Below, one piece after another: positions 5,644 through 37,377 of a stretch of 64,000 nucleotides of DNA. The notes under the pieces are model-generated. The model was not told where the DNA came from. It made no database searches and saw only the letters and a list, made by a program, of their open reading frames with translations. The DNA comes from an uncultured Flavobacteriaceae bacterium (GTDB lineage Bacteria > Bacteroidota > Bacteroidia > Flavobacteriales > Flavobacteriaceae). A program made the translations under genes and the position numbers. How positions within the stretch are numbered: the stretch's first letter is position 1; each line of letters begins with the position of its first letter. The stretch spans positions 186,001 to 250,000 of the forward strand of contig CANNAN010000004.1 in NCBI GenBank assembly GCA_947502635.1, in the 5' to 3' direction.

Positions 5644-6735
5644 TTAATAAAAATGACCGTCTCTATTATGTAATTCAACATCTTTTAAATTTAAACTATT
5701 ATGAGCTAAACCTTTTTTCTCTGATTTATGTGTAAAGACCGTAAAGAACCTTTTTTGTATGTTCTCTGCTAGTTTCGTGTCATCAGTAAATATAAATTTG
5801 GCCCTTTTGTTAATGAAATTTTCAATAAGCACATCTACACATAAATCGTAATACTCTTCTTTTTCTACTAAAAAATACTTGACATTAAATTCATTATAAT
5901 TTATAATAAAAGATATAAAACCTATTGTTTTACCATCCTTTAAAATTTTCAAACTATATCCATATATATTATTACTAGTGCCTGTTTCAAGGGATTTATA
6001 GCGTTGTTTTGTAGGAACGATTAACTGCGTAAATTGCTTATTATCTATTTGCCAGCTTATATAATCTTTAGATTTTACTATTAAGTCGTTTTTACATAAT
6101 GGCTCAATAAAATTCCAGGCTTCATTATCTAATTCATTTATATATTCATAGAAAAGGTCTTCAGTTCTTCGCTTTAATTTATTATAGTTGATCTTATTTA
6201 TTATCGATGCTATAACATAATCAAATCTATCAAGGAAATAACGAAATGGTTTTAAAAATTTAAATCTTCCAACTAACATCGATGGATCTACACTTAAAAA
6301 AATAGTATATCTTAATCTCGTTACTATGGTAGAAAAGGGTTGTTTATTGTAGAAATCAGCAATATGCTCAGCATAAGATTTAATTAATATTTTGTTACCA
6401 GCTAGTTTTAGAGCCTCATAAAATGTATATGTGCCCAAAACTGTATTTTCATATTTAGGGTCTACCCACCACGAAATCATCCAATATACTTTCTTAGGTT
6501 CATCGTCTTTTAAATTCAATAAATCTGGAATCATATAAATAAATGAAATCATTTTTTGATCTTCCAAAGTTATTATACAGCAATAATCGTCATCTTCAAT
6601 CCTAGAATTAGACAAAAGCCAAGAAGCTTTGCTTTTGGGCAAAGGAGCAAAACCTTTTTTCCAATAGGTGTTTTGTTCAATACTATCACGTAGCATTTTT
6701 TTTGTAATCCCTAAGACCTTTAAATCTTTACTCAT
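5644..6735 (-). CDS. GNAT-like acyltransferase in the adenylation/carrier cassette
   Basis: This 363-residue soluble protein has no signal peptide. The N-terminal half looks like a GNAT fold: an ISFIYMIPD strand, then WWVDPKYENTVLGTYTFYEALKLA, resembling the acyl-donor loop and following helix, then a segment IADFYNKQPF like the usual 'xxFYxKxGF' end strand. The C-terminal half contains a second alpha/beta segment (YGYSLKILKDGKTIGFISF) that may be a degenerate GNAT repeat. It lies 18 nt upstream of the adenylation gene and 9 nt downstream of a PglC-like gene, so it is the natural candidate to move the carrier-bound group to a sugar. I do not recognise a named family; the function is inference. 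Confidence 0.6.
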   Translation of the reverse strand: MSKDLKVLGITKKMLRDSIEQNTYWKKGFAPLPKSKASWLLSNSRIEDDDYCCIITLEDQKMISFIYMIPDLLNLKDDEPKKVYWMISWWVDPKYENTVLGTYTFYEALKLAGNKILIKSYAEHIADFYNKQPFSTIVTRLRYTIFLSVDPSMLVGRFKFLKPFRYFLDRFDYVIASIINKINYNKLKRRTEDLFYEYINELDNEAWNFIEPLCKNDLIVKSKDYISWQIDNKQFTQLIVPTKQRYKSLETGTSNNIYGYSLKILKDGKTIGFISFIINYNEFNVKYFLVEKEEYYDLCVDVLIENFINKRAKFIFTDDTKLAENIQKRFFTVFTHKSEKKGLAHNSLNLKDVELHNRDGHFY

Positions 6736-7482: not shown

Positions 7483-8793
7483 TTAACTGAGGTTACTTTT
7501 GTAATAATTATTTATGGTAGCCTTTCTTTTTCCAGATGCCAGTAAAGGGATTTCTTCTACATAATTGATTTTTATTTCTGCATCTTCACCTAAATATCCT
7601 TTGAATTCATTAATCACATCAATTTCTTGATTAAATTCATTTGTGACGTTTAATTTTAATGTATAACTTTTTTTCGATTCTTGAATGAGCTGTCCTTGGA
7701 TAACCCCTATATACTCTACTACATTAATAATTATAAAAGAGGAAACAATTTCTCCTTCAGTATTATATATTACATCTGTTTTTCTTCCTTCTACACTTTT
7801 AAAAACAGGTGGGCTAACAGTGTAATCAATAATACCTAAGTCACCTGTATCATAGCGTATTAAAGGGGTCGCATAATTATATAAATCTGTAACAACAATT
7901 CTACCAGTTTCATCTTTCTCTGCTAATGTATCTTCATCTAGTTTAAAAATTTCAACATAATAACTTGCCCAATTTATTGTGAAGCTTTCGCTTTTTATTT
8001 TTTGCTGAGCAATAATGCCATTTTCATTGTTTGAATACCTAGAAACCACATGTGCATTAAAATATTTACACATAGACTCTTTGGTGTATTTGTTGAGACT
8101 TTCAGACATAGCTATAATTGATTTTACATAGCTGTTTATGGGTTTAGATTTAGTTTTGTCAAGATGCTTGCATATTAATTCATACCCTGAAGCATATCCT
8201 AGCCACCCTTTAGCAGATTTATCTTTTTTAATTTTGTTTATAATACTATCTATATATTGATCACTTAGATTAACAACTTCTAGTTCTTCAATATTTTGTA
8301 TAAATTTTGTTATAGGTGATTTTTTATAATAGTCATTCCAATTTCTTAGATATAAAAGTTTGTAACCTATTTTAAAACCAGCTAATTTTCCAAAATAAAT
8401 AGAATCTGCTGTATTTCGGACAATTTTGTTTTTGTCTTGATTTACCTTTAAAGCTAAACCAGTTGACCCACTTGTTGAAACTATTTTTGTTTTTTTATCC
8501 GTGTAGTTTTGAGCTTCGAATTCTTTACTACGCGTCCTTAAAAGATTCTTGTTAATTATAGGGAAATCTTCTATGTTTTTATAATTTTTATAAAAAGTGG
8601 TCGATTTATTAGCATGATTCAATAAGTCTACTAAACTTTTTTCTCTGAGATCTTTTGATTTGGATTCGGAAAAATTTTCTAAAATATATGAAATATCCTT
8701 ATAATGACGCTTTATTTTTGATCCTTTGATCATATCCAAAAGCCAAAAAAATGTAAATCTTAGATATTCTAAGCACGATGTTAATAGCTTCAT
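7483..8793 (-). CDS. CapK/PaaK-like AMP-forming ligase (first copy)
   Basis: A 436-residue member of the phenylacetate-CoA ligase (PaaK/CapK) branch of adenylating enzymes found in capsule loci. It shows the phosphate-binding loop VSTSGSTGLALKVN, the RYSNNENG motif and RYDTGDLGIID, plus the C-terminal GKRKATINN-type end. PaaK activates aryl acids with CoA. Capsule homologues (CapK) are of unknown substrate but are assumed to activate an acid for polymer modification. It lies 45 nt downstream of an SGNH gene whose MBOAT partner follows upstream, suggesting it may supply their acyl group. A second copy lies at 30192. Confidence 0.8.
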   Translation of the reverse strand: MKLLTSCLEYLRFTFFWLLDMIKGSKIKRHYKDISYILENFSESKSKDLREKSLVDLLNHANKSTTFYKNYKNIEDFPIINKNLLRTRSKEFEAQNYTDKKTKIVSTSGSTGLALKVNQDKNKIVRNTADSIYFGKLAGFKIGYKLLYLRNWNDYYKKSPITKFIQNIEELEVVNLSDQYIDSIINKIKKDKSAKGWLGYASGYELICKHLDKTKSKPINSYVKSIIAMSESLNKYTKESMCKYFNAHVVSRYSNNENGIIAQQKIKSESFTINWASYYVEIFKLDEDTLAEKDETGRIVVTDLYNYATPLIRYDTGDLGIIDYTVSPPVFKSVEGRKTDVIYNTEGEIVSSFIIINVVEYIGVIQGQLIQESKKSYTLKLNVTNEFNQEIDVINEFKGYLGEDAEIKINYVEEIPLLASGKRKATINNYYKSNLS

Positions 8794-11271: not shown

Positions 11272-12429
11272 TTAGTTTAAATTTTGATACTCAGTAAGTA
11301 AGGCCTCCCAAACCCTTTTTCGTTCAAACTTAGAAACAATATTAGTTCTGGACAGTAACCCCATTTTTGTAGCTTCTTTTTGATTCGATAATATGTAATT
11401 CATAGACTCATAAATTGCTTCGTCGTCTTTTACAGGAATAATAAGGCCATGTTTTTCATGCTCAATTATTTCGTTACACCCATTAATATTTGTTACTATG
11501 CTAGGTAACTCCATAGCCCCAGATTGCATAACGACATTTGGAAAACCTTCTCGGTAGCTAGGGAATACTAAGGCATTCGATATTGCAAAATATGGTCTAA
11601 CATCATCCACCCAGCCAGTACAAGCAATGTTTTTGTTGTTTTGTATTATTTCCATCGATTTAGGTAAAAGCGGATCTAAATCATTTTCATAAGTCCCGAC
11701 TAATAGTAATTTTACTTTTTCATGTTCTGCATTTATTTTATTAAAAGCTGCCATTAATTCATTGATACCTTTATCTGTAACCAATCTGCCAGTATATACA
11801 AACACAAAATCATCTTCCAAAATATTTAAACTTTTTTTAAGTTCAAGTATTTTAGATTTATCGCTGAAAATTGCTGGGTCAAAATAAGACGTGTCTATGC
11901 CGTTAGTGCTTCCGTTGGCTATAACCTTTAGTTTGTCTTTTTTAGTAAAATTGTTTTCTAATATAATATCTACTAACCCGTAGGAATTTGGATATATTTT
12001 TGTAGCACATTTATAAGTGATTTTTTCAACTAAATTAAGAATGAAGCGTTTAAAGCCTGTCGCTTCAACAAGAGGTAAACCTGCTATCGTATGCAATCTA
12101 TGTGGTACTCTTGCTAGTTTTGCTGCAAGCATAGAAAGCGTTCCTGCTTTTGGTGTATGAGAATGCACAATAAAAGGCTTTTCTTTTTTAAACACTTTAT
12201 ATAATTGCCACATAGCAAAAAGGTCTTTAAAAGGTGTTATTTTTCTTGTCATTTCAACAGCTATAGTTGGAACATCTTCATATTCCGAAACTCTTGCTAA
12301 TGCATTATCTTTTCCTTTTGATGACACTCCTAATATGTCAAAATGATTGGACATAAATCTTAATTGCCCTTGTAGCAAACCACTTAATGATAATGGAACT
12401 GTAGTGACTCTAATAATTTTTTTCTTCAT
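11272..12429 (-). CDS. Glycosyltransferase family 4 (GT-B)
   Basis: A 385-residue GT-B glycosyltransferase, cytoplasmic or peripheral to the inner membrane. The N-terminal acceptor domain contains HSHTPKAGTLSMLAAKLA. The C-terminal donor domain has VFVYTGRLVTDKGINEL and the EX7E-type block YREGFPNVVMQSGAMELP. It is of the sort usually found near initiating PglC-like transferases in Bacteroidetes capsule loci, where it adds the second sugar; that role is inference. It is the only glycosyltransferase in the 21.8-kb leftmost run. A candidate -7 element lies 38 bp before the ATG. Confidence 0.88.
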   Translation of the reverse strand: MKKKIIRVTTVPLSLSGLLQGQLRFMSNHFDILGVSSKGKDNALARVSEYEDVPTIAVEMTRKITPFKDLFAMWQLYKVFKKEKPFIVHSHTPKAGTLSMLAAKLARVPHRLHTIAGLPLVEATGFKRFILNLVEKITYKCATKIYPNSYGLVDIILENNFTKKDKLKVIANGSTNGIDTSYFDPAIFSDKSKILELKKSLNILEDDFVFVYTGRLVTDKGINELMAAFNKINAEHEKVKLLLVGTYENDLDPLLPKSMEIIQNNKNIACTGWVDDVRPYFAISNALVFPSYREGFPNVVMQSGAMELPSIVTNINGCNEIIEHEKHGLIIPVKDDEAIYESMNYILSNQKEATKMGLLSRTNIVSKFERKRVWEALLTEYQNLN

Positions 12430-12581: not shown

Positions 12582-13769
12582 TCAAGCATTAAATATAACT
12601 TTTTGGTAACTATTTACTCCCTTGATCAAAAATGAATGTTCATCATTGTATTTATATATTTTTATATCATTTATATGACTTGTTGTAGTATATAAAAAAC
12701 TATATATATACTTATTTAAAAAACGATATTCATCAGTGCTATACTGCTGTATTTCTTTTATATTAACACTCTTTAAATCATTAATTACTTTAATTTCTGA
12801 TAGCATAATATTACTTTGCTTGTCTTGCTTCTTTGTAAGGTATCTATTAATTTTTGGATAAATTTCATTTAACCTTTTAGATTTCAGATATTCTTTAAAT
12901 TGGATTTTCATTACAATCAATTGTGCTTTATATTTTGATTGAACAGAGGAACTTTTGTAAATCACATAGTGGTTGTATCTATAAATATTATTGCTCCATC
13001 TTCTTTTGTAATCCATGCCGCCAACACCCATTTCAAAAAGCTTATAGCCGTTATTGGCACACCACTCTATTTGTTTATATATTTCGACATGACCTAATCC
13101 AAACTTTGAATAATCAATATTAAATGATGAGATATAACTGAATAAGATTTTATCAAAATGATAATTTAATGAAATTTCTATAGGCTCATCTTCATTATAA
13201 ATAACAAATAATGAGGCTTCTTTGTTTAGGATTTTTTGATAAGTACTTTCTACTAAAACCTGCCATTCAAACAGGTTTTTATGTGTTTCATTCCGTTCTT
13301 TAAATCTATCAATAATCATCGTGTACAATGACTGCATGATAAAGTTGTAGTCTGCTGAAGAAATGTCCCCATAAAACATTCTATATCTCACATTGAAGCA
13401 AGATTCCAGGCGTTTGATATACCTTTTTAGAATATTTCTCTTTTTAGAATTAAATTGACGCTGCATATAAGTATCAATAGAATCGGAAGTATTGAGTAAT
13501 ATCGAATAGCCCCAGTTGTGCTGTGGTATTATTTTACTTTTAAATGTGGTGTCTCTTAAATTTAACTTGAAATATTCTGGAACTAATCTGAATGTAAATA
13601 TGCTGTTTTTTAAAACCTCTGAGTTTTTATTTAAAATATGTAGTCCAAAATATTCAATACTTTTATAAAGACGGTTTATCTCTTGTGTTCTGAATAGAAG
13701 AGGAAAGATTGCTATTTTATTTTTTTTTCTCATTGAATTTTTCAAACTAAAAATTAATTTAATCTGCAA
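12582..13769 (-). CDS. GNAT-fold (CelD/BcsL-like) acyltransferase, array member 1
   Basis: 395 residues, soluble. The central region has the array core: KRNILKRYIKRLESCFNV followed by RMFYGDI, then ASLFVIYNEDEPIEISLN, then FNIDYSKFGLGHVEIYKQIEWC and FEMGVGGMDYKRRW. The last blocks match the CelD/BcsL (Acetyltransf_6) signature of the second half of a FemAB-like GNAT fold. The last 70 residues form an extra domain (YRFLNKYIYSFLYTTTSHIN...IYKY...FLIKG) shared with members 2-4. It overlaps member 2 by 11 bp. It probably transfers an acyl or aminoacyl group to a sugar or lipid-linked saccharide; no substrate can be assigned. Confidence 0.78.
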   Translation of the reverse strand: MQIKLIFSLKNSMRKKNKIAIFPLLFRTQEINRLYKSIEYFGLHILNKNSEVLKNSIFTFRLVPEYFKLNLRDTTFKSKIIPQHNWGYSILLNTSDSIDTYMQRQFNSKKRNILKRYIKRLESCFNVRYRMFYGDISSADYNFIMQSLYTMIIDRFKERNETHKNLFEWQVLVESTYQKILNKEASLFVIYNEDEPIEISLNYHFDKILFSYISSFNIDYSKFGLGHVEIYKQIEWCANNGYKLFEMGVGGMDYKRRWSNNIYRYNHYVIYKSSSVQSKYKAQLIVMKIQFKEYLKSKRLNEIYPKINRYLTKKQDKQSNIMLSEIKVINDLKSVNIKEIQQYSTDEYRFLNKYIYSFLYTTTSHINDIKIYKYNDEHSFLIKGVNSYQKVIFNA

Positions 13770-14967
13770 TTAGTATTTTTTGTGTTCTTTTTAAACCTTT
13801 AAAATAAAAAGTTTCTTTATTATCTAATTCCTTGTATATGCTAACGTTGTTTACTAATTCTTGACTTTTATGCAAAAAATAGTTTAATGGTTTTATTAAA
13901 AATGAGTATTCATCTTTGCTAAGATCAATTGTATCTAAGTTTTCAAGTTTTGGTATTTCAGAAGTTGTATTATCTATATTAAACCTTATTTCTTTTGTTG
14001 GTTTACTTTTAGCTTTAATTAGTCTGTATTTATATTTTACATATTTACCATACCATAAATGTATGCTTGTTTTTTTTAGAATTTGAATGACCCCAAATCG
14101 GATTTTCAATTTTATTATTTTAAGATATGCTATTATTGAAGCTCGCAATGATTTCGAATCATATAAAACGTGCTCATTATACATATAATTTTCATTAACA
14201 TATTTTCGTTTATGTAGAAAGTCACCTCGCCCCATATCAAACAATTTGAAACTATTTTGAAAAGCCCATTCCAGATGATTTACCATGTTAATATGACCTA
14301 AATTAAACATTTGATAGTCAGTGTCGTAACAGCTGTTCCAGTGAAAAATAGTATCACCGTCTATAAAGTTTAAAGTGATATTAATGGGTTTGTTATTATG
14401 ATAGATAGCAAATATGCATGCTTTTTTATCTAATATTAATGGATACATCATGTCTTGATATAATTCCAGATATGGTAGTTCGAAATTAAATTCTTCTTTT
14501 TGAGCAAATCGTTGCTCAGTCATTGAGAATAGGTATTTAAAAAGAAGAAGGTATTCGTGTTCTAATATATCTCCATAGAATATTTTGTATTCTGGGGCTA
14601 TGCATAGATCTAATCGTTTTCTGTACCTTTTTAACTGAGACTTTCTGGGTCTGCCTAGTTTATTGTTTAAATAATCTTCTAAGTCTTTAAAAGCTGTTAA
14701 GTTTATTAAATAGCCCGTATATAACAAAGTTGTTAATAGTTTTAAATGTTTATCGGTATTAATAAGTTGGGGTGAAAAATAATCAGGAATATCGCTAATA
14801 CTATATGTTGTATGATTAATTCTAAAATTGGAATTAGAATTTGTTCTGTAAACAACATGGTTTGTAATTGAATTGGTTATTTTTTTATAAAAAGGAGGGA
14901 AGCCCTTATTTTTAAAGAATAGGTCTAAAAAAAAACTAACATTACTATGTTTTTTATTCATTTCCAT
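13759..14967 (-). CDS. GNAT-fold (CelD/BcsL-like) acyltransferase, array member 2
   Basis: 402 residues, the longest of the array. The N-terminal block FFKNKGFPPFYKKITNSI and DIPDYFSPQ is shared in looser form with members 3-6. The core has KSQLKRYRKRLDLC, YKIFYGDI, KKACIFAIYHNNKPINITLN, YDTDYQMFNLGHINMVNHLE and FDMGRGDFLHKR. In the last motif the usual YK is HK. The C-terminal 70-residue domain is present (YSFLIKPLNYFLHKSQELVN). It is 15 nt from member 3 and overlaps member 1, so it is co-transcribed. Function as for the family: acyl or aminoacyl transfer, substrate unknown. Confidence 0.76.
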   Translation of the reverse strand: MEMNKKHSNVSFFLDLFFKNKGFPPFYKKITNSITNHVVYRTNSNSNFRINHTTYSISDIPDYFSPQLINTDKHLKLLTTLLYTGYLINLTAFKDLEDYLNNKLGRPRKSQLKRYRKRLDLCIAPEYKIFYGDILEHEYLLLFKYLFSMTEQRFAQKEEFNFELPYLELYQDMMYPLILDKKACIFAIYHNNKPINITLNFIDGDTIFHWNSCYDTDYQMFNLGHINMVNHLEWAFQNSFKLFDMGRGDFLHKRKYVNENYMYNEHVLYDSKSLRASIIAYLKIIKLKIRFGVIQILKKTSIHLWYGKYVKYKYRLIKAKSKPTKEIRFNIDNTTSEIPKLENLDTIDLSKDEYSFLIKPLNYFLHKSQELVNNVSIYKELDNKETFYFKGLKRTQKILIAD

Positions 14968-14982
14968 TTATAAAAAAATAAT

Positions 14983-16164
14983 TTATTCATTTTTATCTAT
15001 TGTTATTAGTTGTTTTTTGTTTTTTGACTTTATTAAAAACTGATTTTCTGAATCATTAAACTTATACACAATTACATGATTGATAGATTGTTTAGATATA
15101 AACAAAAAATCGTATAAAGCCTTTCTTAAAAAAGCATAGTCATTAATTTTTTCAATAAGTATTGGAGTGATATTTTTTATTTCATTTTCATTAATATTAG
15201 ATACAACCGTTGTTGGTTTATCATTAATACGTCCTATTTTAAATGTTTTTTTGTTAATCTTTTTATATGCAAGATATAGTTTTGAATTTTTAATGATTGT
15301 ATAGCATTTATATTTAATACGTTCCTTTATATAAGTTAATTTACCAATAAAAGAGGTTTTAATTGAATTTGGGTTGTAAACTATATGATTGTAATAATGA
15401 TGTGATTTTGTTGCCCACTTTTTCTTATAGTAATCATATCCTTTTAAAAGATCATAAGTTTCAAAGTTATTATCAAAACACCAAGCTATATTTTTTAGCA
15501 TATCTATTGATCCTAAATGAAATTTTGAATAATCGATATCATAACCACTAATAATGTAAAAACCTAGTTTTTCTTTGTTCATATTTATTCGAATACTAAT
15601 CGGGTTATCATTATCATATATAACAAATAAACTGGCTTTTTTATTAAGTATTAAATCATATACAATACCATGAAATTCATCCAGATATTGTAATTCATAG
15701 TTAACTTCTTGTTTTTGGTTAAATCGTTTTATTAATAAATCCTTTAAAACAATAAAAAGGCGGTCATATTCTTGTTTAGGAATGGCACCATAGTAACAAG
15801 TATACTTGATGTTGAAGCAGGTTTCCAACCTGTTTTGATAGCGTCTTAAGTTTGACCTGCTTTTAGCACTAAAATTTTGTTTTAAATAATCGGAAAAGCT
15901 TTTAAATGATTTAAGTTCTACTAAATGTCCTTTTAAAGTCTTTACTTTAGCTAGGATCATTTTTTCTTCTGATTCTTTAATATTAACATGTAAATAATCA
16001 GGAATATCTTTTATTAGAAATATTAGCTTATTTATATTCAGGGTTTTATTAGTTTCTAATTTATAATTAAAACCCTCATTGTCTGTAATTGAATAATAGA
16101 TAGGAGGAAGGTTGTTTTCTGCTAAAAAAGCTTTTAAAAATGTTATGTTTTTAATGATCCCCAT
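14983..16164 (-). CDS. GNAT-fold (CelD/BcsL-like) acyltransferase, array member 3
   Basis: 393 residues. N-terminal LAENNLPPIYYSITDN and DIPDYLHVN; core RSNLRRYQNRLETCFNI, YTCYYGAI, KKASLFVIYDNDNPISIRIN, YDIDYSKFHLGSIDMLKNIAWC and YDLLKGYDYYKKKW. The C-terminal extra domain is present (YAFLRKALYDFLFISKQSIN). The conserved RYxxRLExCFNI segment marks the start of the catalytic half. No membrane segment or signal peptide, so it acts in the cytoplasm, before export of the repeat unit. It is 14 nt upstream of member 2's neighbour boundary and 14 nt downstream of member 4. Confidence 0.77.
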   Translation of the reverse strand: MGIIKNITFLKAFLAENNLPPIYYSITDNEGFNYKLETNKTLNINKLIFLIKDIPDYLHVNIKESEEKMILAKVKTLKGHLVELKSFKSFSDYLKQNFSAKSRSNLRRYQNRLETCFNIKYTCYYGAIPKQEYDRLFIVLKDLLIKRFNQKQEVNYELQYLDEFHGIVYDLILNKKASLFVIYDNDNPISIRINMNKEKLGFYIISGYDIDYSKFHLGSIDMLKNIAWCFDNNFETYDLLKGYDYYKKKWATKSHHYYNHIVYNPNSIKTSFIGKLTYIKERIKYKCYTIIKNSKLYLAYKKINKKTFKIGRINDKPTTVVSNINENEIKNITPILIEKINDYAFLRKALYDFLFISKQSINHVIVYKFNDSENQFLIKSKNKKQLITIDKNE

Positions 16165-16178
16165 AAAACTTACCAGAC

Positions 16179-17369
16179 TTATTGAAAAGTTATTTTAAAT
16201 ATATTGTTTTTCCCCTTTATAAGGTAAGTGCTTTTTTTATTTTGAAATTTAAAGACCTCAATTGTATTTATTGATTCTTGGGTGGTATATAAAAAATAGT
16301 ATACTGGTCTTTTTAAATAATAGAATGATTTATTATTGATATCAACATTGATCAGATCTTCAGACGAATCTATTAATTTTAGTTTTTCAACAACTACTTT
16401 TTTTGAATCGGTATCTATTTTCCCCAATTCTCTATTTCTATATTTATATTTTAAAAAATTATGATATAGTACATTAAAATGCAGCTTCTTTAAAAAACGA
16501 ACCAATGCATAAAAAACGCGTGTTCTAGTGACTATTATATTTGCAGAAAGCCTTGTTAAAATTGATTTCGAATTATAAAGAACATGTTTTTGGAAATCAT
16601 ATTGCGTGTCAATTAATTTGGTCTTATAAGGGTAGTTTCCTTTAAGTAAATCAAAAATTTCAATATTGTTGTTAAAGCACCAATCGAGCTGTTTTATAAA
16701 ATCTGTAAAACCAATATAGAATTTTGAATAATCAATATCATAGGTTCTAATATAACCATAAATCGTTTTATCTCTTACCAAATTTAGGCAAATGCTAATA
16801 GGTTTTGTATTATTATAAATCACAAATAGTGCTGCTTCTTCACTATTTATGAGGGGGTAAGCAATTTCATAGTAAGTATCCCACCGAGACAAATCATAAT
16901 TCTGTATTTTTTTTTCTAAAAACCGATTTTTAATCATTTTATGAAATGCTTCAAAAAGAGCGTCATATTCGCTTCTTGAAATGGCTCCAAAAAAACTCTT
17001 ATACTCAATATTGAAACATGTTTCCAACCTTCGCTGGTAGGTTCTGAATTTCGATCTTCTGCCAGAACTAAATTTATGCTTTAAATAATCGTCTGAATTA
17101 TCATAATTTTTAAGTAAAATTAATGACCCTTTATATGTATTTATACTTTTTAATTTCCAACTTGTATTTGTAATAGATCCTTTTAAATAACTGGGAAAAT
17201 CATAAATACAGTATAAAAATTTTTTGTCTTCAAGTATGGGTTTGATATTTTTATAAATAGTTGTTCCAGAAATGCTATTTACAATAGTATTGTAAACAGG
17301 TAAAGCTACTTTTTTCTCTAAAAAAGTACTTAAAACGTCTAGGTTTTCTGGTCGTATTCTTTTTAGCAT
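16179..17369 (-). CDS. GNAT-fold (CelD/BcsL-like) acyltransferase, array member 4
   Basis: 396 residues. N-terminal FLEKKVALPVYNTIVNSI and DFPSYLKGS; core RSKFRTYQRRLETCFNI, YKSFFGAI, EEAALFVIYNNTKPISICLN, YDIDYSKFYIGFTDFIKQLDWC and FDLLKGNYPYKTK. The final motif lacks the usual Trp after YK. The C-terminal domain is present (FYYLKRPVYYFLYTTQESIN), closest in wording to that of member 1. It is 4 nt downstream of member 5, the tightest spacing in the array. The enzyme class is supported; the acceptor is not. Confidence 0.77.
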   Translation of the reverse strand: MLKRIRPENLDVLSTFLEKKVALPVYNTIVNSISGTTIYKNIKPILEDKKFLYCIYDFPSYLKGSITNTSWKLKSINTYKGSLILLKNYDNSDDYLKHKFSSGRRSKFRTYQRRLETCFNIEYKSFFGAISRSEYDALFEAFHKMIKNRFLEKKIQNYDLSRWDTYYEIAYPLINSEEAALFVIYNNTKPISICLNLVRDKTIYGYIRTYDIDYSKFYIGFTDFIKQLDWCFNNNIEIFDLLKGNYPYKTKLIDTQYDFQKHVLYNSKSILTRLSANIIVTRTRVFYALVRFLKKLHFNVLYHNFLKYKYRNRELGKIDTDSKKVVVEKLKLIDSSEDLINVDINNKSFYYLKRPVYYFLYTTQESINTIEVFKFQNKKSTYLIKGKNNIFKITFQ

Positions 17370-17373
17370 GCTA

Positions 17374-18330
17374 CTAGGGTCTTACAACTTTATTTTTATA
17401 AGAGTAAATGAGCTTATCAAGTATAAATAATTTACCTATTATATTTTTATTTCTTAAAAACTGCAAGAATTTCAATTCTTGTTCAATAATTTTTGCAAAC
17501 AGTCTTGATCGTATTGATTTTTTATTATAAAAAATATGATATAAAAAGTGATATTGATGATTACTCCATTTTTCTTTATAATAAGTATGTCCCATGGAAA
17601 GGTCGAATATGGCAATATTATTATTTATCAACCATTCTATGTGATTTACCATGCTTACATCACCCATATTGTATTTTGAATAATTCACATCATAGGTTTG
17701 AATATGACTAAAAACAATATCACTTAAATGGAAGTTCAATGTAATTGCAATAGGTTTTGAATCATCATAGATTACATGTAAAGATGCTTTTTTATCTTGT
17801 ATTTTTTGAAAAGTAGACACTTGCAGATCACTCCAACCAGATAAATACCTGTTGTAGGTTTTCTTTTTTATGAATCTAGTTTTGAGTAGCTTATAGAAAG
17901 CCTCAAAAATGTTCTCGTATTCCTTTTTTTCTATTTTTCCGAAAAAAAAACGTGATGAGATACTATGGTTTCTATGAAGCTTATTTATTTTAGAATTTAA
18001 ATTTTTCTTATTTCTTTTATTAAGCGTGTTATTTATAAAATCCTGTGCATTTATGACTCCTTTAACATTCACCAAATAACCTTTATATTGTAATACCTCT
18101 TTAAACTTTGTATTGGAGTTTTTAATATGAGGAGTGAAACTTAAGTAATTCGGAATATCTTTAGTTATATAGATGTTTTTGAAGTTATTGTTAACTATGT
18201 TTTCAATATTGAAGCTATTTTGTGTTAATATATTCAAAACTTTTCCATCGTATAATGGACTTATTTTTTTATTTAAAAATAAATCAAAAATTAAATGACT
18301 GTTTCGAATAGAAAAAAGCTTGTGAATCAT
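17374..18330 (-). CDS. GNAT-fold (CelD/BcsL-like) acyltransferase, array member 5 (short form)
   Basis: 318 residues. It carries the shared N-terminal block (FLNKKISPLYDGKVLNIL, DIPNYLSFT) and core (KASLHVIYDDSKPIAITLN, YDVNYSKYNMGDVSMVNHIEW, FDLSMGHTYYKEKW). The RYxxRLExC segment is diverged (KNLNSKINKLHRNHSI). It ends at the point where members 1-4 begin their 70-residue C-terminal domain. It terminates cleanly with its stop 4 nt before the next ATG, so this looks like a natural short form rather than a truncated pseudogene. Substrate unknown. Confidence 0.76.
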   Translation of the reverse strand: MIHKLFSIRNSHLIFDLFLNKKISPLYDGKVLNILTQNSFNIENIVNNNFKNIYITKDIPNYLSFTPHIKNSNTKFKEVLQYKGYLVNVKGVINAQDFINNTLNKRNKKNLNSKINKLHRNHSISSRFFFGKIEKKEYENIFEAFYKLLKTRFIKKKTYNRYLSGWSDLQVSTFQKIQDKKASLHVIYDDSKPIAITLNFHLSDIVFSHIQTYDVNYSKYNMGDVSMVNHIEWLINNNIAIFDLSMGHTYYKEKWSNHQYHFLYHIFYNKKSIRSRLFAKIIEQELKFLQFLRNKNIIGKLFILDKLIYSYKNKVVRP

Positions 18331-18373
18331 CTAAACAGGTTGGTCTTTATTAATGGTTTAATTTACTCAATAT

Positions 18374-19393
18374 TTATTCAGCATATCTCTTTTTGTTTAG
18401 AAAAAAGTGTAACTCATGAATAAAATTTGTAACATGTTTTTTTCTGAGAAATAATTTAAAAGCAAAGAAATTTTTATAAAGCCATGCCAGTAAGCATGCT
18501 ACAATTGATTTTTTATCATAAAAAATATGGTATTCAAACCAATATGGTTTATTGGCCCATCTTTGCTTATATTCAAAATAGCCTTTAGAGAAATCTAAAG
18601 CCTTAATATTGTTTTCTATACACCATTCTAATTGCTTCATAATACTAACGGTACCTAGTCTAAATTTTTTATAATCGATATCGAAAACCCTAATAACATC
18701 TATCATGGTATTATTTGATAAATTAATTAAGGTAATAGCAATAGGTTTATCTTTATCATATACTACAAATAGCCCAGCTTGCTTTTTCAAGATCATAGGT
18801 AATGTTACTTCTTTATAAAAATTCCATTCCTCAGGATTTAAATTATTATTTACCGTTTTTTTATCAAAAAACCGTTTTTTAAGAAGCCGTTTAAAATGAT
18901 AAAAGATGTCCTCATAAGCTTCTGGAGTTATATCATCTAAAAACACTTTATAATGTATATCACATGAAGTCTCTAGTTTGCGTTTGTAACTGTTAAACTT
19001 ATAGCGGCTTTTTCTACTAATAACTTCAAGTAAATACTCTTCAAGTGTATTGTATTTTTGCAGATCGCATACGTATCCAGGATACTGTTTGATTTTATAA
19101 CAACTTAAATCTTCGTTTTTAGTATTATTTTCTATATTAAATGCAGGAACATCAAAGATTATGAAAACACTATTTTTATAATCATCATAAATGTCATTTG
19201 ATAAATTATATGAAACCCCTTTTGTATTAGTGCCTCCTGTATTGGAAAACACAGGTAGTTTTTTATGTTTTACAAAAGTAAGCGCATCAACAAAACTAAA
19301 AGCAAACGGCTTTTCACTATCGTTGAAGTGTTTTAGCCAAATAGACTTAAAAGTTCTACGCAAATAAGGGTTTTTGTTAGTTACCATATTCAT
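18374..19393 (-). CDS. GNAT-fold (CelD/BcsL-like) acyltransferase, array member 6 (short form)
   Basis: 339 residues, first of the six in transcription order. N-terminal FVKHKKLPVFSNTGGTN; core SRYKFNSYKRKLETSCDI, YKVFLDDI, KQAGLFVVYDKDKPIAITLIN, FDIDYKKFRLGTVSIMKQLEWC and LDFSKGYFEYKQRW. It lacks the C-terminal domain found in members 1-4. The start overlaps the end of the SGNH gene by 17 bp; an in-frame ATG two codons later is equally possible. The overlap ties the whole array to the MBOAT/SGNH pair just upstream. Confidence 0.77.
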   Translation of the reverse strand: MNMVTNKNPYLRRTFKSIWLKHFNDSEKPFAFSFVDALTFVKHKKLPVFSNTGGTNTKGVSYNLSNDIYDDYKNSVFIIFDVPAFNIENNTKNEDLSCYKIKQYPGYVCDLQKYNTLEEYLLEVISRKSRYKFNSYKRKLETSCDIHYKVFLDDITPEAYEDIFYHFKRLLKKRFFDKKTVNNNLNPEEWNFYKEVTLPMILKKQAGLFVVYDKDKPIAITLINLSNNTMIDVIRVFDIDYKKFRLGTVSIMKQLEWCIENNIKALDFSKGYFEYKQRWANKPYWFEYHIFYDKKSIVACLLAWLYKNFFAFKLFLRKKHVTNFIHELHFFLNKKRYAE

Positions 19394-20339
19394 TCCTTTC
19401 TACTAAACTATTTTTGATATCCTTACCCAATAGTTTAGAAAATTTCTTTGCACTAGCGGATAACATATGAGACCCGTCATAAGTTTTATAGTCACTACCC
19501 AATGATGAATAATTTAAAAACTCAACACTGTATTGTTTTGAAATACTATCAAATTGTTTGTCAAAACCTTTCCATAAATCATTTTCTATTTTTATAATAT
19601 CATTATCCGCAGGTAAACGAACAATGAATACATTGCCAATCGTTTTTAAATATTGAATGGTTTTTATGAAATGATTTAAACGGTAATTCGAAAATTGTTC
19701 TTTCTTGATTTTTCGTTTATAATACCTGATTGTTAACGATTTCCAGTGATCGATATCACTTTCTCTAATCTTGTTAAACCTACCATTTTGTGTTATTTCA
19801 TTCCACCCATTTGGATGTGGGGTATGATGCTCCCATTTATCAAAATCATGCAACGCATTATATAAGGGTTGAGGATAGGTATTAATAATATAACTGTAAT
19901 TAGGTGCTGATGTGAAATTATCTATTTTACCTATAATACCTTCTTTATCCATATTGTAGATGTTTTCATCATTCATACCTGAAGGAGCCGTAAAACTTCC
20001 AGGGGAAATAGCGACAATAAAAATTCCGTTTTTAGAATTTGATTTTAATTTTTGCTTAATACCGTCTAAATATATTTCACCATAAGATGATTGAACCGTA
20101 TTCATTGCAAAATTCACCATTGGGTTTTCAAATTGACCACTGCTTAGTTCTTCTTCAATAATACTTGGAGAAACACCTTCACTAGCACGGGACAGTCCTA
20201 AAATTAGGCCACTGGCTTTTTGCGAAAATTTATTGTAATAAGGGTCAACATATTCTTTTGAAAGCTTATCTACAAAAAAAGCATAAGTACTAGCCAGTAT
20301 AGTACAGAAAATAATTATTTTATAAATAAAATTCTTCAT
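19377..20339 (-). CDS. SGNH-like O-acyltransferase partner of MBOAT (pair 2)
   Basis: 320 residues with an N-terminal membrane anchor (residues about 5-22). The nucleophile motif is ILGLSRASEG and the terminal pair is YDGSHM (Asp-x-x-His after accounting for the D-G-S-H spacing). This places it in the SGNH/DltD-like group although the block-I 'GDS' is GLS. The inner block GIFIVAISPGSF is shared with the protein at 34741, and together they form a subfamily distinct from pairs 1, 3 and 4. It follows its MBOAT by 5 nt. It probably acylates the exported polymer on the periplasmic side. Confidence 0.75.
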   Translation of the reverse strand: MKNFIYKIIIFCTILASTYAFFVDKLSKEYVDPYYNKFSQKASGLILGLSRASEGVSPSIIEEELSSGQFENPMVNFAMNTVQSSYGEIYLDGIKQKLKSNSKNGIFIVAISPGSFTAPSGMNDENIYNMDKEGIIGKIDNFTSAPNYSYIINTYPQPLYNALHDFDKWEHHTPHPNGWNEITQNGRFNKIRESDIDHWKSLTIRYYKRKIKKEQFSNYRLNHFIKTIQYLKTIGNVFIVRLPADNDIIKIENDLWKGFDKQFDSISKQYSVEFLNYSSLGSDYKTYDGSHMLSASAKKFSKLLGKDIKNSLVERNEYGN

Positions 20340-20344: not shown

Positions 20345-21790
20345 TTAAAATTGAAAATAGATGAATGTATTCTGACGATTAATAGCAAATAAAACAATGA
20401 TTACTATGTAACTCATATATATAGACCACCTTAAAGGCTTCGATTTATTTGTAACTAATTCATGGATTTTATCATTTCCTTTAAAATAATGAATTGTTTG
20501 AACACCTATAATAAAAACAAAGCTCAAAATAAGTTCAAAATAATTATTTAGAATATTAATGTGCAACCCCGTAATGTTAATCATGCTTTTAAAATATAAA
20601 ATGGCATCTGTAGCAGAAGGTGATCTAAAAAAGATTAAAGGTATACTAAGACATATTACTAGAGCGCACCATCCCAACATTCTAATTAAAGTTTTTGGAA
20701 GCTTAAGGGCCTTAAAAATTAGCTTTCTAATATTGTTGGTACTAAACTCTAAAATAAGCAATATTGCATTCAAAACACCCCAAATAACAAAAGTCCAATT
20801 TGCTCCATGCCATAAACCAACAATAAAAAATAGAATAAGTACATTTCTAACAACTTTTAACTTAGATCCTCTAGAGCCACCTAATGGTATAAAAACATAA
20901 TCCTTAAGCCATTCCATTAAAGAAATATGCCAGCGTTTCCAAAATTCTGAAATTGATGTTGCAAAATATGGTTTATTGAAATTTTGGACTAAATCAAATC
21001 CCATTGTCTTGGCAGTACCTATTGCAATTGATGTGTATGCAGAAAAATCATAATAAATTTGGAAGGCAAAGAAGAAAGAACCAATAAAAAGTGGTATTCC
21101 ATGATTAAATTCAGGGTCTTCAAAAGCAGCATCTACATAAACACCTAATCTATCTGCAACTACGACCTTTAAGAAAAACCCCCAAGCTATCATTATGAGT
21201 CCCTTTTTTAAATTTGGTAAATGAATACTTATTTCTTTTTTTAATTGAGGTATTAATCTTGAGGCACGTTCTATAGGTCCAGCGACTAATTGAGGAAAAA
21301 AGGATACATATAACGCAAAAACTCCAAAATGTTTTTCAGGTAAGATTTTCCCTCTATATACATCTATACTATAGCTTAAAGTTTGAAATGTATAAAAGCT
21401 AATACCTACAGGAAGTAATATTTGTTTAAAGTTATAGCCTCCAACTTGTTCTCTATTAATACTTAAGTTGAAAAAAGAAAATAAACTTTCAATCGATGTT
21501 GTAAAAAAAGATAAATATTTAAAAACAAATAGAATCCCAATATTGACTACTATACTAATAAACAGGTACAACCTTCTCATTAGTGAATTTGCATGTACCA
21601 TTTTAAGTGCACAAAAATAATCTACAATCGTCGAAGTTAATAAGAGAATTAATAATTCAGGTTCATGTATCATATAAAAGAAATAACTCCCCAAAAGAAG
21701 CCATAACCACCTGTTTTTGTGTGGCAAAACATAGAACCCAATTATCATTACTGGGAAAAAAAGAAGAAATTCAAATGAATTAAATAACAT
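20345..21790 (-). CDS. MBOAT family O-acyltransferase, AlgI/DltB-like (pair 2)
   Basis: 481 residues, polytopic. Motifs: FWKRWHISLMEWLKDY and LWHGANWTFVIWG with the conserved histidines, FFPQLVAGPIERASRL, PVGISFYTFQTLSYSID, and the C-terminal FIYFQF. It is the first gene of the leftmost minus-strand run and has a candidate -7 element 34 bp before its ATG, so it probably opens that operon. It differs from the other four MBOATs in the N-terminal loop (FYMIHEPEL in place of FYGWWDYRF-like). The SGNH partner follows immediately. Confidence 0.92.
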   Translation of the reverse strand: MLFNSFEFLLFFPVMIIGFYVLPHKNRWLWLLLGSYFFYMIHEPELLILLLTSTIVDYFCALKMVHANSLMRRLYLFISIVVNIGILFVFKYLSFFTTSIESLFSFFNLSINREQVGGYNFKQILLPVGISFYTFQTLSYSIDVYRGKILPEKHFGVFALYVSFFPQLVAGPIERASRLIPQLKKEISIHLPNLKKGLIMIAWGFFLKVVVADRLGVYVDAAFEDPEFNHGIPLFIGSFFFAFQIYYDFSAYTSIAIGTAKTMGFDLVQNFNKPYFATSISEFWKRWHISLMEWLKDYVFIPLGGSRGSKLKVVRNVLILFFIVGLWHGANWTFVIWGVLNAILLILEFSTNNIRKLIFKALKLPKTLIRMLGWCALVICLSIPLIFFRSPSATDAILYFKSMINITGLHINILNNYFELILSFVFIIGVQTIHYFKGNDKIHELVTNKSKPLRWSIYMSYIVIIVLFAINRQNTFIYFQF

Positions 21791-22312: not shown

Positions 22313-24292
22313 ATGATTACCATGAAAAGGATTTTAAAAACTATGCTATTTGTCTTAATATTTATGATGTCAATAACATCATGCAATAAAGAAGAACTAT
22401 TTAACGAACCAGTAGTGGTTGTAGATGAGGACCCAACTGATACTGACGAACCAGATACAGATGATGATGATGATACTGACGCAACTTTACCCTGTGATTT
22501 TACTCTAGATAACGTTGAACCTAACTCTACTATAATAATTAACTGTATTTTAGATTTAGATGGAAAAACAGTTGATCTACCTGCAGATGTTACTATCGAA
22601 TATGAAGGTGGAGATATTATAAATGGTACTATTAATTTTTCTGAAGGAAATATTATTGATGGTAATATATTAAATTCTACATTAACTATTGGAGGGACAA
22701 AACCACAATTAAAAGATCCTGTTTTTAATTTTAATCCAAAGAGATGGGGGATAGTTGAAGGGGAAACAACTTCTGAAATTGCCCAAAGAAATAATGATAT
22801 CCTAGAAGAGTCTATGTTTATGGCTAAAGATTTGGGTATAACTATTTTCAAAATTGATAAAATGGATGCTTACTTTGAAGTATCTAAAGTGACTAGTACT
22901 ACAACTAACCAAAATTTTTACCCCTCTCAAGAAGCCATTAATGTGCCTTCAGATTTCACTTTAGAAATGACTGACAATACGCATTTAAGAGTATTGCCAA
23001 ATTCGAGAAAAGTTTATTGTTTATTAGGTATAAGAGGAGAGAAAAATGTAGTTGTAAAAGGAGGTATTTTACATGGAGATAGAGATAGACATGACGATAA
23101 TTCTCAAGAGGGACCTCATGCTTTTGGAATGTTAGTTATTATTCATGGTTCTGAAAATGTTTTGGTTGATGGAGTTACTATGATTAATGCCATTGGTGAT
23201 GGACTTGATGTTAATAGTATAGGTTTTACATTTGAGCCTGATTATCAACCAGCTAACAATATTAGAGTAGCTAACTGTACTTTTGATAATAACAGACGTA
23301 ATAACCTTTCAATTACAGATGGTTTCAATATGATAATTGAAAACAACCTGTTTTTAAATGCAGGAAGAGATAATCCAAATTCTATAGGTATGGCTCCTGG
23401 ATTTGCTATAGATGTAGAAGCTTTTAGAGGTAAGGAAAATGGTGAGTTTATCTATTATGAAAAGGCTTATGACATTATTATAAGAAATAACACTGAAAGA
23501 GGTAGTAAATATGGTGCTTTTGTAGTTGCAATTGGAGACGATGTAACTATTGAAAACAATACAACAGAAGGAGGTATAACTATTGGAGCAGCATCTGGGG
23601 TGAAAATTATTGGAAATAAATTAACTTTTAATCCTGATAACCCAAGTAGTGATGCAGGTATAACAACTGGACATCCAGCGTCTGAAACGACATTTAATAA
23701 TGAAGTATCTAATAATACTGTTAAAGGTTATAGTGTAGGTGTAGCTGCATATCAAAGAGATACTAAAATATTTGGCAATACTTTTGAAGATTTTAGTGTA
23801 GGTATTCAACCTAAAAACATTAAGAATTTTGAAATTTATAATAACAACTTTACGAGTAGTAGATCTACTTCTGTAGCCATATTTGGAAATTTAACAACTA
23901 TGGAAAATGTTAATATACACAATAACGATGTTATAAGTGTAGTTCGAGAGAGTGTGAAATTAGTAGCTGTAAATGAAGATGCTTCAGCTTCTAATTATAG
24001 AGTTAATATAGAAAATAATAATTTATCTAACGGTTCTGTATTTAGTCGATCTAAAGGTGTTGATTTTGTTAAAAATGCAACAAAAGAAGGACTTATTTTT
24101 GTAAACGCTAGCGATATGACTGTTACAGAAAACAATATTGAATCAACAAATCAAGACGGTATTATAATATCCAGTGGTTGCAGTAATTTAAATGTACGAA
24201 ACAATACCATTACAGTTACTGGTGCTAATACAGATTGTATCAGTAATGATGGAGGTGCTAATATAGTTGTAGGAGATAATAGTTGTAATTAA
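22313..24292 (+). CDS. Predicted surface-exposed parallel beta-helix lipoprotein
   Basis: 659 residues. A lipoprotein signal peptide (MKRILKTMLFVLIF...SITSC) is followed by NKEE, matching the Cys-X-Lys-(Asp/Glu)2 surface-export signal described in Capnocytophaga. Next is an acidic linker (about residues 42-60, mostly D, T, E, P). From about residue 65 the chain is beta-helix repeats of the pectate-lyase/NosD type, for example GDGLDVNSIGF, IRVANCTFDNNRRNNLSI and VTIENNTTEGGITIGA. The fold is typical of polysaccharide lyases, epimerases and depolymerases. A second ATG three codons in (22322) starts the signal peptide more naturally. It is the only plus-strand gene inside the locus. Action on the polymer (trimming, epimerisation or anchoring) is inference. 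Confidence 0.82.
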   Translation: MITMKRILKTMLFVLIFMMSITSCNKEELFNEPVVVVDEDPTDTDEPDTDDDDDTDATLPCDFTLDNVEPNSTIIINCILDLDGKTVDLPADVTIEYEGGDIINGTINFSEGNIIDGNILNSTLTIGGTKPQLKDPVFNFNPKRWGIVEGETTSEIAQRNNDILEESMFMAKDLGITIFKIDKMDAYFEVSKVTSTTTNQNFYPSQEAINVPSDFTLEMTDNTHLRVLPNSRKVYCLLGIRGEKNVVVKGGILHGDRDRHDDNSQEGPHAFGMLVIIHGSENVLVDGVTMINAIGDGLDVNSIGFTFEPDYQPANNIRVANCTFDNNRRNNLSITDGFNMIIENNLFLNAGRDNPNSIGMAPGFAIDVEAFRGKENGEFIYYEKAYDIIIRNNTERGSKYGAFVVAIGDDVTIENNTTEGGITIGAASGVKIIGNKLTFNPDNPSSDAGITTGHPASETTFNNEVSNNTVKGYSVGVAAYQRDTKIFGNTFEDFSVGIQPKNIKNFEIYNNNFTSSRSTSVAIFGNLTTMENVNIHNNDVISVVRESVKLVAVNEDASASNYRVNIENNNLSNGSVFSRSKGVDFVKNATKEGLIFVNASDMTVTENNIESTNQDGIIISSGCSNLNVRNNTITVTGANTDCISNDGGANIVVGDNSCN

Positions 24293-30191: not shown

Positions 30192-31592
30192 TTAGAATTT
30201 AAGTTCAAAATTTCTTTTTTGCGCATCAAATTTCTCATTGGGGCCTAATGGAATATTATCAACAATATTTATTGTATAATCAATATGCTCTCCCAATCTA
30301 TCTTTAAGGTTGTTCAACAATCTATCGTGCATTTTTTTATTAAAAGCATCATCTACGATCAAATTAACCACAACTAATTTTGGGTTTTCTTGTATAATCT
30401 GTCCTTCCATAATGCCTTCAATATCAATTAAAGCAGTATCTGCACTAACCACATAGCCTTTTTCTTCGGTCCACAAAATATCATCTTCTCGTCCTATTAT
30501 TTTTTTCACAATGGGCATATTGCAATTGCAATTACATATTTCATTTTGTAAAGGTAAAAGCACTGTATCTCCTATATTATAACGTATTAAAGGCGTTTTA
30601 AACCTAATAATGCTCGTAACCACTAGATTTGCTATTTCCCCAGGTTTAGCGGGTTTACCTTCATTATTAACATATTCGAAAATTCCAGAATCAAGATTTA
30701 CATGTAAATTACCATTGGTACATTCTGTGATAAAAGGACTGCCTTCGTTTGAAGCATATTGATTGTGTACATGGCACCTAAAGGCTTTTTCTATTTCTAT
30801 CCTTTGGTAATCATATAAAGTTTCAGAAGTCACAGCTATGGCCTTAGGTACAAAGCTTAGTTTAATTTTATTCTTGTTTATGAATTTACTAATGATAAAG
30901 ATAGCAGATGGATAACCATCTATTAACTTAGGCTTGAATTTGTTTAATTTCTCTATATAGAATTTGAAATTTTCCGATTTTAAATGATAGGTAGACATCA
31001 TCAACTGCTTCTCAAAATAATTGTATACCCAAAAAGGAGGTTTTTTTGCATCATTATTAATGACCAGCCTTCCTGAAAAACGCACTTGTTTGTCTTTAGT
31101 TTTTACACCAATAACATTATGAAAACGTTTCCATACTGCAAACGAATCGTTGATAGATTCTTGATCTAGGTAATCCATAGTAGGTGACCCCGTTGTGCCA
31201 CTGGTATGATTTACCATATCTGTTTTTCTGCTAGTATTTACAATTAAATCTACATGTTTTTTTCTATCGCTCTTTTCAAGAATAGGCATTCTTTTCAATA
31301 CCTCTATGGGATTTGATTCTATTTCTTTTAAAGTAATTTTACGCTCTTTCATTATGGAAGCGTACCATTGAGAGTGTTGGTGTACTTCTGTTAATAATTT
31401 AGATAATTTTTTTTTCTGGAAATCATTAATATCTTGAATGTCTGCTCCCCAAAGGTCTATATGCTCTTGTAAAGAGCTTTTAAATCTACTATTGTAACGT
31501 TGTTTGGCATTTAAATACCCTTTGAAATTTAACAAAAGATATTTAAAAAAATATGGCGATTTATCGTAAACCTTTTTAGCTAACCCTCCCAT
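30192..31592 (-). CDS. CapK/PaaK-like AMP-forming ligase (second copy)
   Basis: 466 residues. Adenylation motifs NHTSGTTGSPTMDYL, QYASNEGSPFITEC and RYNIGDTVLLP are followed by a small Cys-rich segment (CNCNCN) and KKIIGREDD. It belongs to the phenylacetate-CoA-ligase-like branch often seen in capsule loci. It probably activates a carboxylic acid for attachment to the polymer. The gene overlaps the upstream glycosyltransferase by 17 bp, so it is co-translated with it. Compared with the copy at 7483 it keeps a Cys cluster that copy lacks, so the two are not recent duplicates. Confidence 0.8.
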   Translation of the reverse strand: MGGLAKKVYDKSPYFFKYLLLNFKGYLNAKQRYNSRFKSSLQEHIDLWGADIQDINDFQKKKLSKLLTEVHQHSQWYASIMKERKITLKEIESNPIEVLKRMPILEKSDRKKHVDLIVNTSRKTDMVNHTSGTTGSPTMDYLDQESINDSFAVWKRFHNVIGVKTKDKQVRFSGRLVINNDAKKPPFWVYNYFEKQLMMSTYHLKSENFKFYIEKLNKFKPKLIDGYPSAIFIISKFINKNKIKLSFVPKAIAVTSETLYDYQRIEIEKAFRCHVHNQYASNEGSPFITECTNGNLHVNLDSGIFEYVNNEGKPAKPGEIANLVVTSIIRFKTPLIRYNIGDTVLLPLQNEICNCNCNMPIVKKIIGREDDILWTEEKGYVVSADTALIDIEGIMEGQIIQENPKLVVVNLIVDDAFNKKMHDRLLNNLKDRLGEHIDYTINIVDNIPLGPNEKFDAQKRNFELKF

Positions 31593-35676: not shown

Positions 35677-35681
35677 AAAGT

Positions 35682-37127: not shown

Positions 37128-37137
37128 GGTTTGTTAA

Positions 37138-37377
37138 TTATATTTTACTTTGTATCACAGACACTAACGAGCCCATGTTTTTAAGTTTATTTAAGTCTCT
37201 AAGCTTAAATTTAATATTAAAAGCTTCCTCTATTTTAGTAATAATCATCATATGCGATAATGAATCCCACCCATCTACATCCTTAGCTGTTAATTCATCG
37301 TGCATTTCAAAGTTACCGTGTCCTAAAATAGATTTTAACACATCGCCTATATTTTCTTTTATCGTTAAAGTTTCCAT
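37138..37377 (-). CDS. Acyl/aminoacyl carrier protein (DltC-like, second copy)
   Basis: 79 residues. The phosphopantetheine serine is Ser39 in DVDGWDSLSHM, at the same residue number as in the carrier at 3876. Helix III wording (FNIKFKLRDL) is near-identical to that copy. It is 13 nt downstream of the adenylation gene and 10 nt upstream of the MBOAT, the order ligase-carrier-MBOAT-SGNH. Fatty-acid synthesis genes are absent nearby, so a role in polymer decoration is more likely than lipid synthesis. Confidence 0.9.
   Translation of the reverse strand: METLTIKENIGDVLKSILGHGNFEMHDELTAKDVDGWDSLSHMMIITKIEEAFNIKFKLRDLNKLKNMGSLVSVIQSKI

Follow-up and report, generated by a model that had tools for sequence, protein, structure and literature searches.

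Six PF13480 transferase genes kept in one order within a putative capsule or exopolysaccharide locus of Flavobacteriaceae

Why should a bacterium keep six diverged genes of one transferase family in a single row? The question is raised by a 64,000-nucleotide stretch of DNA from an uncultured Flavobacteriaceae bacterium (assembly GCA_947502635.1, contig CANNAN010000004.1, positions 186,001 to 250,000), here called the window, whose coordinates are used throughout unless another contig or locus is named. Six adjacent open reading frames on its minus strand, positions 12582-19393, match the GNAT-type family PF13480 (Acetyltransf_6); we call them F1 to F6, and transcription runs from F6 to F1. The initial annotation of this DNA knew of no described system with six such genes in a row, and no account of one was found among the titles and abstract openings listed from the open-licence literature that was searched. 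From sequence comparison, the array is taken here as a set of PF13480, GNAT/Fem-like polysaccharide-modifying enzymes of a kind already known. We give an even chance to the reading in which each F gene would encode one transferase with one fixed acceptor site on a polysaccharide repeat unit, the donor being acyl or aminoacyl.

Pfam and phylogenetic trees assign all six genes to the PF13480 GNAT-type transferases: F1 (12582-13769, 395 residues, TTG start, the last gene of the array), F2 (13759-14967, 402 residues), F3 (14983-16164, 393 residues), F4 (16179-17369, 396 residues, with an invariant Lys249), F5 (17374-18330, 318 residues, a short form without the C-terminal extension) and F6 (18374-19393, 339 residues, likewise short and the first GNAT gene of the array). 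The initial annotation had described six consecutive diverged genes of 318 to 402 residues spaced by -11 to 43 nt, and this description held: the gaps from F1 to F6 are -11, 15, 14, 4 and 43 nt, and F2 to F6, alignable with F1 over most of their length, share 28-31% identity with it. The claimed membership in the GNAT family is also borne out on the basis of Pfam, since all six exceed the curated PF13480 cut-off of 22 bits (35.2-50.7 bits, E 1.7e-8 to 2.8e-13). The shared motif blocks are present, but not in every copy, RYxxRLExCFNI being absent from F5 and partial in F2 and F6. Because the proteins contain no transmembrane-like segment (no 19-residue Kyte-Doolittle window above 1.6) and carry a net charge of +16 to +27, they are probably cytosolic. 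A seventh paralog, F7, lies just left of the window. The C-terminal extension, about 60-80 residues long, is conserved in F1-F4 and F7 and absent in F5 and in F6 of the Flavivirga group, while long F6-like proteins, judging by their length, possess it.

Is the array a product of local duplication? A profile search with the six genes gave matches in 20 of 60 genomes, our own included (two of the 20 were weak), and besides the window the order MBOAT2-SGNH2-F6-F5-F4-F3-F2-F1 was found in 9 of 20 DNA stretches around matches. A scan of named genomes with 10 F6 orthologs yielded 67 loci, all in Flavobacteriaceae, of which 16 possess the full F6-to-F1 order, or hexad: L052-L062 and L114 (uncultured Flavobacteriaceae, Flaviramulus, Gaetbulibacter, Flavivirga, Wocania and Hyunsoonleella), L069-L070 (Cellulophaga) and L076-L077 (Flagellimonas). 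Seven of these 16 come from the same genomes as stretches of the profile search and were counted once; the hexad order is thus present in 19 distinct genomes, namely the 16 named loci, the window, G001 and G003. In seven of the 19 (L053-L057, L070 and L077) there are two F4-type genes, and F4 looks doubled. F1 orthologs measure 376-387 residues in 14 of the 16 named hexad loci, so the real start of F1 may be the ATG at codon 13.

In a tree of 92 proteins, from which one short row of 148 residues had been dropped, the positions F1 to F5 each formed a clade of positional orthologs with 100% support in the Shimodaira-Hasegawa-like approximate likelihood ratio test (SH-aLRT), and the F6 type one with 99%. 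In a second tree, of 117 rows, the genes of Cellulophaga and Flagellimonas took the corresponding positions; that tree covered 17 of the 20 loci with at least six members (L053, L055 and L057 left out), and rows below 250 residues were dropped, one of them in L082. Placement is less sure for L077 (Flagellimonas aequoris), whose seven members sit on very long branches; two are of odd composition, and the frames are open. Given the same order in 19 genomes and a separate clade for each position, the trees indicate that the array is not a local duplication.

The conservation extends upstream of the array. MBOAT2 (20345-21790, minus strand; PF03062, assigned by Pfam and tree) and SGNH2 (19377-20339, minus strand) lie directly upstream of F6 in 19 of 19 hexad genomes, and for this reason we consider the unit to be a cassette of eight genes, of which MBOAT2 is the first. 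SGNH2, an SGNH/DltD/AlgJ-like protein with an N-terminal hydrophobic segment and the motifs GLSR and DGSH, is labelled from context and motifs, with no convincing Pfam match. The MBOAT2 proteins of 17 loci (the 16 hexads and the cut contig L079) group with that of the window in a single clade (100% support) that excludes 46 other MBOATs from the window and the loci, and each of those 17 lies at most 1.5 kb upstream of an F6-type gene. Among the 67 loci the MBOAT2-SGNH2 pair accompanies 16 of the 20 arrays with at least six members, one of the 32 loci with two or three members (L079, which is cut) and none of the 15 single genes. As an observation on the cassette of the window, F6 is 93% identical to its ortholog in genome G005 (L035), and the adjoining SGNH2 and MBOAT2 only 52% and 68%; this drop in identity suggests a recombination boundary between F6 and SGNH2.

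We also evaluated whether the six copies might be redundant or decaying duplicates without distinct functions. Copy number does vary, F4 looks doubled as described, the genome G478 holds two family fragments and the long branches of L077 could be read in the same way. Against this, the ratio of nonsynonymous to synonymous substitution rates (dN/dS) is 0.09-0.21 for each of F1-F6 in comparisons with two relatives (a third, with synonymous sites at or near saturation, is little informative), so that each gene is under purifying selection; moreover the frames are open, core residues are kept and the order is fixed in 19 genomes. We consider this explanation highly improbable, and for the copies of the window decay was rejected on the selection and orthology data. 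The initial annotation had named decayed copies in relatives as a finding that would speak against it; dN/dS and open frames give no sign of decay in F1-F6, the two fragments noted being those of another genome, G478.

The six clades also differ in their residues. With 18 sequences per clade, a threshold of 85%, one F4-type gene per locus and L077 left out, 11 alignment columns were identical across the six clades, including Arg149, Gly220, Trp230 and Lys249 (F4 numbering), and 16 columns were fixed within clades and different between them, for instance positions 205 (S,H,Y,G,S,D) and 218 (G,N,H,Y,N,R). These position-specific residues show the pattern expected of six enzymes with different partners. 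On positional orthology, purifying selection and clade-specific residues taken together, each gene seems to have a separate role, as the initial annotation had proposed, and the six F enzymes are predicted to be non-redundant.

On which polymer could they act? The polysaccharide setting claimed earlier was supported: the locus includes a PF01943 flippase (Wzx), an EpsG-like polymerase, Wza, Wzc, CpsB, glycosyltransferases, initial sugar transferases and a pyruvyltransferase, and so has the parts of a putative Wzx/Wzy-type capsule or exopolysaccharide cluster. Five MBOAT genes lie in the window (8839-37127), each followed by an SGNH-like gene (a label based on motifs and position; SGNH3 lacks DxxH), and a sixth (L009:14524-15975), 58% identical to MBOAT3, is found in the left flank; on this count, the locus suggests many separate O-acylation steps on one polymer. 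In the mechanism that we propose, the eight-gene cassette would act within this locus with F1-F6 as its transferase part. Each F enzyme, soluble and basic, would work in the cytosol, before the flip by Wzx, on the repeat unit attached to undecaprenyl, and would transfer its acyl or aminoacyl group to a single acceptor site there, in the simplest case an amino group. On the periplasmic side, O-acylation of the same polymer by MBOAT2 and SGNH2 would follow. We infer the cytosolic site, the lipid-linked acceptor and the rule of one enzyme per site, and, by inference again, the undecaprenyl-linked repeat unit would be the natural acceptor in such a locus. From the initial annotation, which proposed stepwise or site-specific addition to a lipid-linked saccharide, we retain the distinct roles and some kinship with Fem proteins, while its amino-acid donor, lipid-linked acceptor and stepwise order did not gain support.

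Several points weigh against this reading. Sequence does not distinguish parallel addition, with one enzyme per site, from sequential, stepwise addition; clade-specific residues can also be a product of common descent alone; and we know of no assayed enzyme of the array family. In Arenibacter, three loci carry seven genes and one carries six, all without MBOAT2 and SGNH2: the seven-gene loci keep the F6, F5, F4 and F1 types in the same order with other types between them (at F2, perhaps F3), and the fourth locus diverges more from the hexad pattern. A positive genome has between 1 and 8 members (9 if one weak match is counted), and because of this range six genes are not a fixed requirement of the family. 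Finally, the available part of the published report on Cellulophaga fucicola describes an O-polysaccharide with a repeat of galactose, glucose and pseudaminic acid and no amino acid, in which the only acetamido groups are two on the pseudaminic acid (PMC3210612). The comparison is made at the level of the species, which has the hexad, and the strain of the published structure may differ from the sequenced one. If the structure as described there applies, the product of the array in C. fucicola would be another polymer, or the idea is wrong, and a simple link of the array to the Cellulophaga O-polysaccharide or lipopolysaccharide was rejected, as the structure does not fit.

The copy numbers come from a survey that the initial annotation had proposed and that was carried out in part. 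Among 397 sampled Flavobacteriaceae genomes, including our own, 89 contain the family (one member or more at E <= 1e-20), and 16 have at least six: 10 by full counts, of which G478 qualifies only if its two fragments are counted, and six by the 60-genome profile search. As the survey scored four candidates per genome, its counts stop at four; full counts were made for 25 genomes, with others from the 60-genome profile search. Counting all PF13480 genes gives 7 to 11 per genome in 16 array genomes, and 10 in our own, nine of them within C4:183117-205015.

The donor is the point at which the explanations part. FemX, FemA and FemB are several related transferases that serve one position each, and by analogy F1-F6 and the FemAB of the cluster could use aminoacyl-tRNAs to add amino acids successively, building a short peptide or aminoacyl branch as on peptidoglycan. 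We regard this relay as possible though rather unlikely. A FemAB-like gene, FemAB_L, lies left of the window in the same cluster, about 15 kb from the array; it matches PF02388 with 53.5 bits against a cut-off of 24 and is present in 15 of the 16 sampled genomes with at least six members. It occurs in 56 of the 89 positive genomes and in 22 of the 308 that are negative (odds ratio 22, Fisher p 5e-27, without correction for kinship). However, FemAB_L falls within the 10-kb flanks of just 7 of the 20 loci with at least six members, as compared with 44 of the 47 loci with one to three. There is no tRNA gene in the window or in 24 other stretches (21 with arrays, and the three F7-bearing flanks L009, L050 and L051), so a dedicated tRNA gene near the arrays was rejected as a candidate.

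Profile comparisons of the proteins themselves are likewise divided. For these we used a wider alignment of 126 rows (our own F7 is not in it), drawing on the 220 members of the named loci, of which filters on length and ends let 211 through and thinning at 62% identity retained 120. The initial annotation had suggested a search with PF13480 and PF02388; PF13480 is matched by 6/6 and by 126/126 rows at E <= 0.01, PF02388 at the same threshold by 0/126. ATE_C, an aminoacyl-tRNA transferase family, is matched by 38 of the 126 members, among them F6 of the window above cut-off (29.3 against 25 bits), and the strongly basic nature of the array proteins also speaks for the relay; but the ATE_C signal is weak and appears also in one of 10 controls, itself a weak relative, and none of four FemAB-type proteins plus the FAD fusion described below shows it. 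As a tRNA marker the ATE_C match is thus a hint. Lys249, in the motif YK, falls in register with the FK lysine of true FemAB proteins aligned to Lys305 of FemX, although the two profile alignments behind this register are very weak and far from significant (probability 1.5% and 0.7%, E 0.034 and 0.085), in contrast to the strong alignment of FemAB_L with FemAB (94%, E 9e-8). In the true FemAB protein L119 the FK lysine aligns to residue 306 of chain 4ii9 of FemX; this residue is Lys305 if the numbering of 4ii9 is one ahead of that of 1ne9, for which the alignments speak. In the accessible part of a published study, FemX Lys305 is catalytic and Lys329 of DhpH-C essential (PMC12945691). Searched against PDB sequences, the 126-row profile gave no match below E 0.4 and the six-row profile none at E <= 1. 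The C. fucicola O-polysaccharide, without amino acid in the part of the report available (PMC3210612), counts against the relay too, and altogether a Fem-type aminoacyl-tRNA route is only hinted at.

The likeness to FemABX has limits. True FemAB proteins also match PF13480, and the array family possibly holds an equivalent catalytic lysine, but PF02388 is not matched, the setting is a capsule locus instead of peptidoglycan, and there are six genes instead of three.

An acyl-CoA donor is as likely as the relay, and these two are the main rivals of our reading. F1-F6 could be plain N-acetyltransferases that use acetyl-CoA or another acyl-CoA (CoA, coenzyme A) on different amino sugars, whether in the repeat unit or in a nucleotide sugar, with no amino acids involved, an explanation that overlaps with the one-enzyme-per-site reading and that we hold to be doubtful but possible. 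Most GNAT enzymes use acyl-CoA, the very name of PF13480 is that of acetyltransferases, and clade-specific residues would suit different sugar acceptors. The available text on the C. fucicola O-polysaccharide, with acetamido groups only, points in the same direction (PMC3210612). On the other hand, among the Pfam-scanned proteins of the window the only sugar aminotransferase is DegT (48723-49853), a small number if six amino sugars are to be made, and hexapeptide and PglD-type enzymes in the locus already cover acetyl transfer to nucleotide sugars. As such genes may lie elsewhere, neither argument is decisive.

A third donor is offered by the locus itself, which contains two adenylation domains (A-domains) of the nonribosomal peptide synthetase (NRPS) and DltA type, each adjoining a PF00550 carrier protein; their matches are to NRPS A-domains and DltA. 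The A-domains could load an amino acid or acyl group onto the carrier proteins, from which the six GNATs would take it, and an A-domain 49-95% identical lies near the array in every one of the 12 Flavivirga-group hexad genomes whose whole sequence was searched (this search covered 47 genomes, by way of 47 of the 67 loci). The A-domain is not found, however, in four of the 16 hexad genomes (two Cellulophaga, two Flagellimonas), in which the best hits, at E 4.5e-7 to 3.1e-5, are frames of about 600 residues, presumably other ligases; of the four Arenibacter array genomes two likewise give no match better than E 4e-7, with frames of the same size, and the other two have NRPS-like frames of 1384-1558 residues as their best; and the A-domain does occur in five genomes whose locus has just one or two members of the family. 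Each pair, furthermore, has a partner of its own. The first forms a module on the minus strand with CP1 (carrier protein PF00550, 3876-4124, by Pfam), A-domain 1 (PF00501, 4129-5625, by Pfam, with NRPS A-domains and DltA as solved relatives) and GNATx (5644-6735, another GNAT-type protein with a weak PF00583 match). In 20 of 21 stretches GNATx accompanies A-domain 1 (the remaining stretch is cut), and it is likely the domain's own transferase; A-domain 2 goes with MBOAT5 and SGNH5, as in dlt operons. Since the A-domain and carrier pair is absent from 4/16 hexad genomes, it was rejected as an obligate donor, and we consider a carrier-protein donor for the six GNATs very unlikely.

The DltABCD D-alanylation system is a further comparison, since the same locus has an A-domain, a carrier protein, an MBOAT and an SGNH-like gene in a row of four (34741-38875: A-domain 2, carrier protein 2, MBOAT5 and SGNH5, analogues of DltA, DltC, DltB and DltD, in a Gram-negative capsule locus). 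This dlt-like set stands apart from the array, in which nothing corresponds to Dlt and which can do without the A-domain. The same row is observed in four other genomes, at L032, L036 (= L114), L040 (= L057) and L054.

The closest studied protein that we found is HfsK of Caulobacter crescentus. In the part of the report available, HfsK is a GNAT protein proposed to acylate the holdfast polysaccharide, with Fem proteins as its closest homologs of known structure, and like the array it belongs to a set of soluble paralogs about 30% identical, with an exopolysaccharide as proposed target (PMC5362036); the six of the window are tied to an exopolysaccharide by their Wzx/Wza/Wzc locus. The paralogs are three, not described there as a tandem array of fixed order, and HfsK binds cyclic di-GMP through its C-terminus (PMC5362036). 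F5 and F6 lack the C-terminal extension of F1-F4.

Other genes of the locus are reported here for completeness. GT4a (11272-12429, minus strand), a group 1 glycosyltransferase by Pfam, lies 3' of F1 and comes after F1 in the Flavivirga-group hexad loci, L033 excepted. A right-handed beta-helix protein (22313-24292, plus strand), found near the array in most Flavivirga-group hexad loci, is perhaps a polysaccharide-active enzyme. Left of the window on C4, a protein of 887 residues (L011:2193-4856) consists of an FAD/NAD(P)-binding domain (PF13454) and, fused to it, a domain of the Acetyltransf_6/FemAB-like type, and relatives of this fusion occur in other loci. The proteins at 7483-8793 (P0001) and 30192-31592 have what we take to be a CapK/PaaK-type adenylate-forming look; Pfam gave no match for P0001 at E <= 0.01 and none for the second at 0.001. 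Nor did Pfam match at 0.001 the protein at 42892-44166, adjoining the flippase gene, whose SGGVDA motif we take to be PP-loop-like.

What, then, could the fixed row mean? At its most specific, the array might be a colinear, tRNA-dependent decoration line, in which six Fem-like enzymes and a FemAB starter would add six aminoacyl (or acyl) groups, one enzyme per step, to give a peptide-like or multi-acyl capsule pattern evolving by gain and loss of array positions; we consider this unlikely and offer it as speculation. More generally, polysaccharide loci usually reshuffle fast, and because of this the persistence of six paralogs in one order across several genera would suggest a modification in several steps, with every enzyme of importance. 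Natural arrays of 1 to 8 or 9 members are ready comparisons of gene content with polymer structure. If the reading of one enzyme per acceptor site is true, such arrays would lead to donors and acceptor rules for PF13480, a large and mostly uncharacterised transferase family, and Fem-type chemistry could extend beyond peptidoglycan to capsules.

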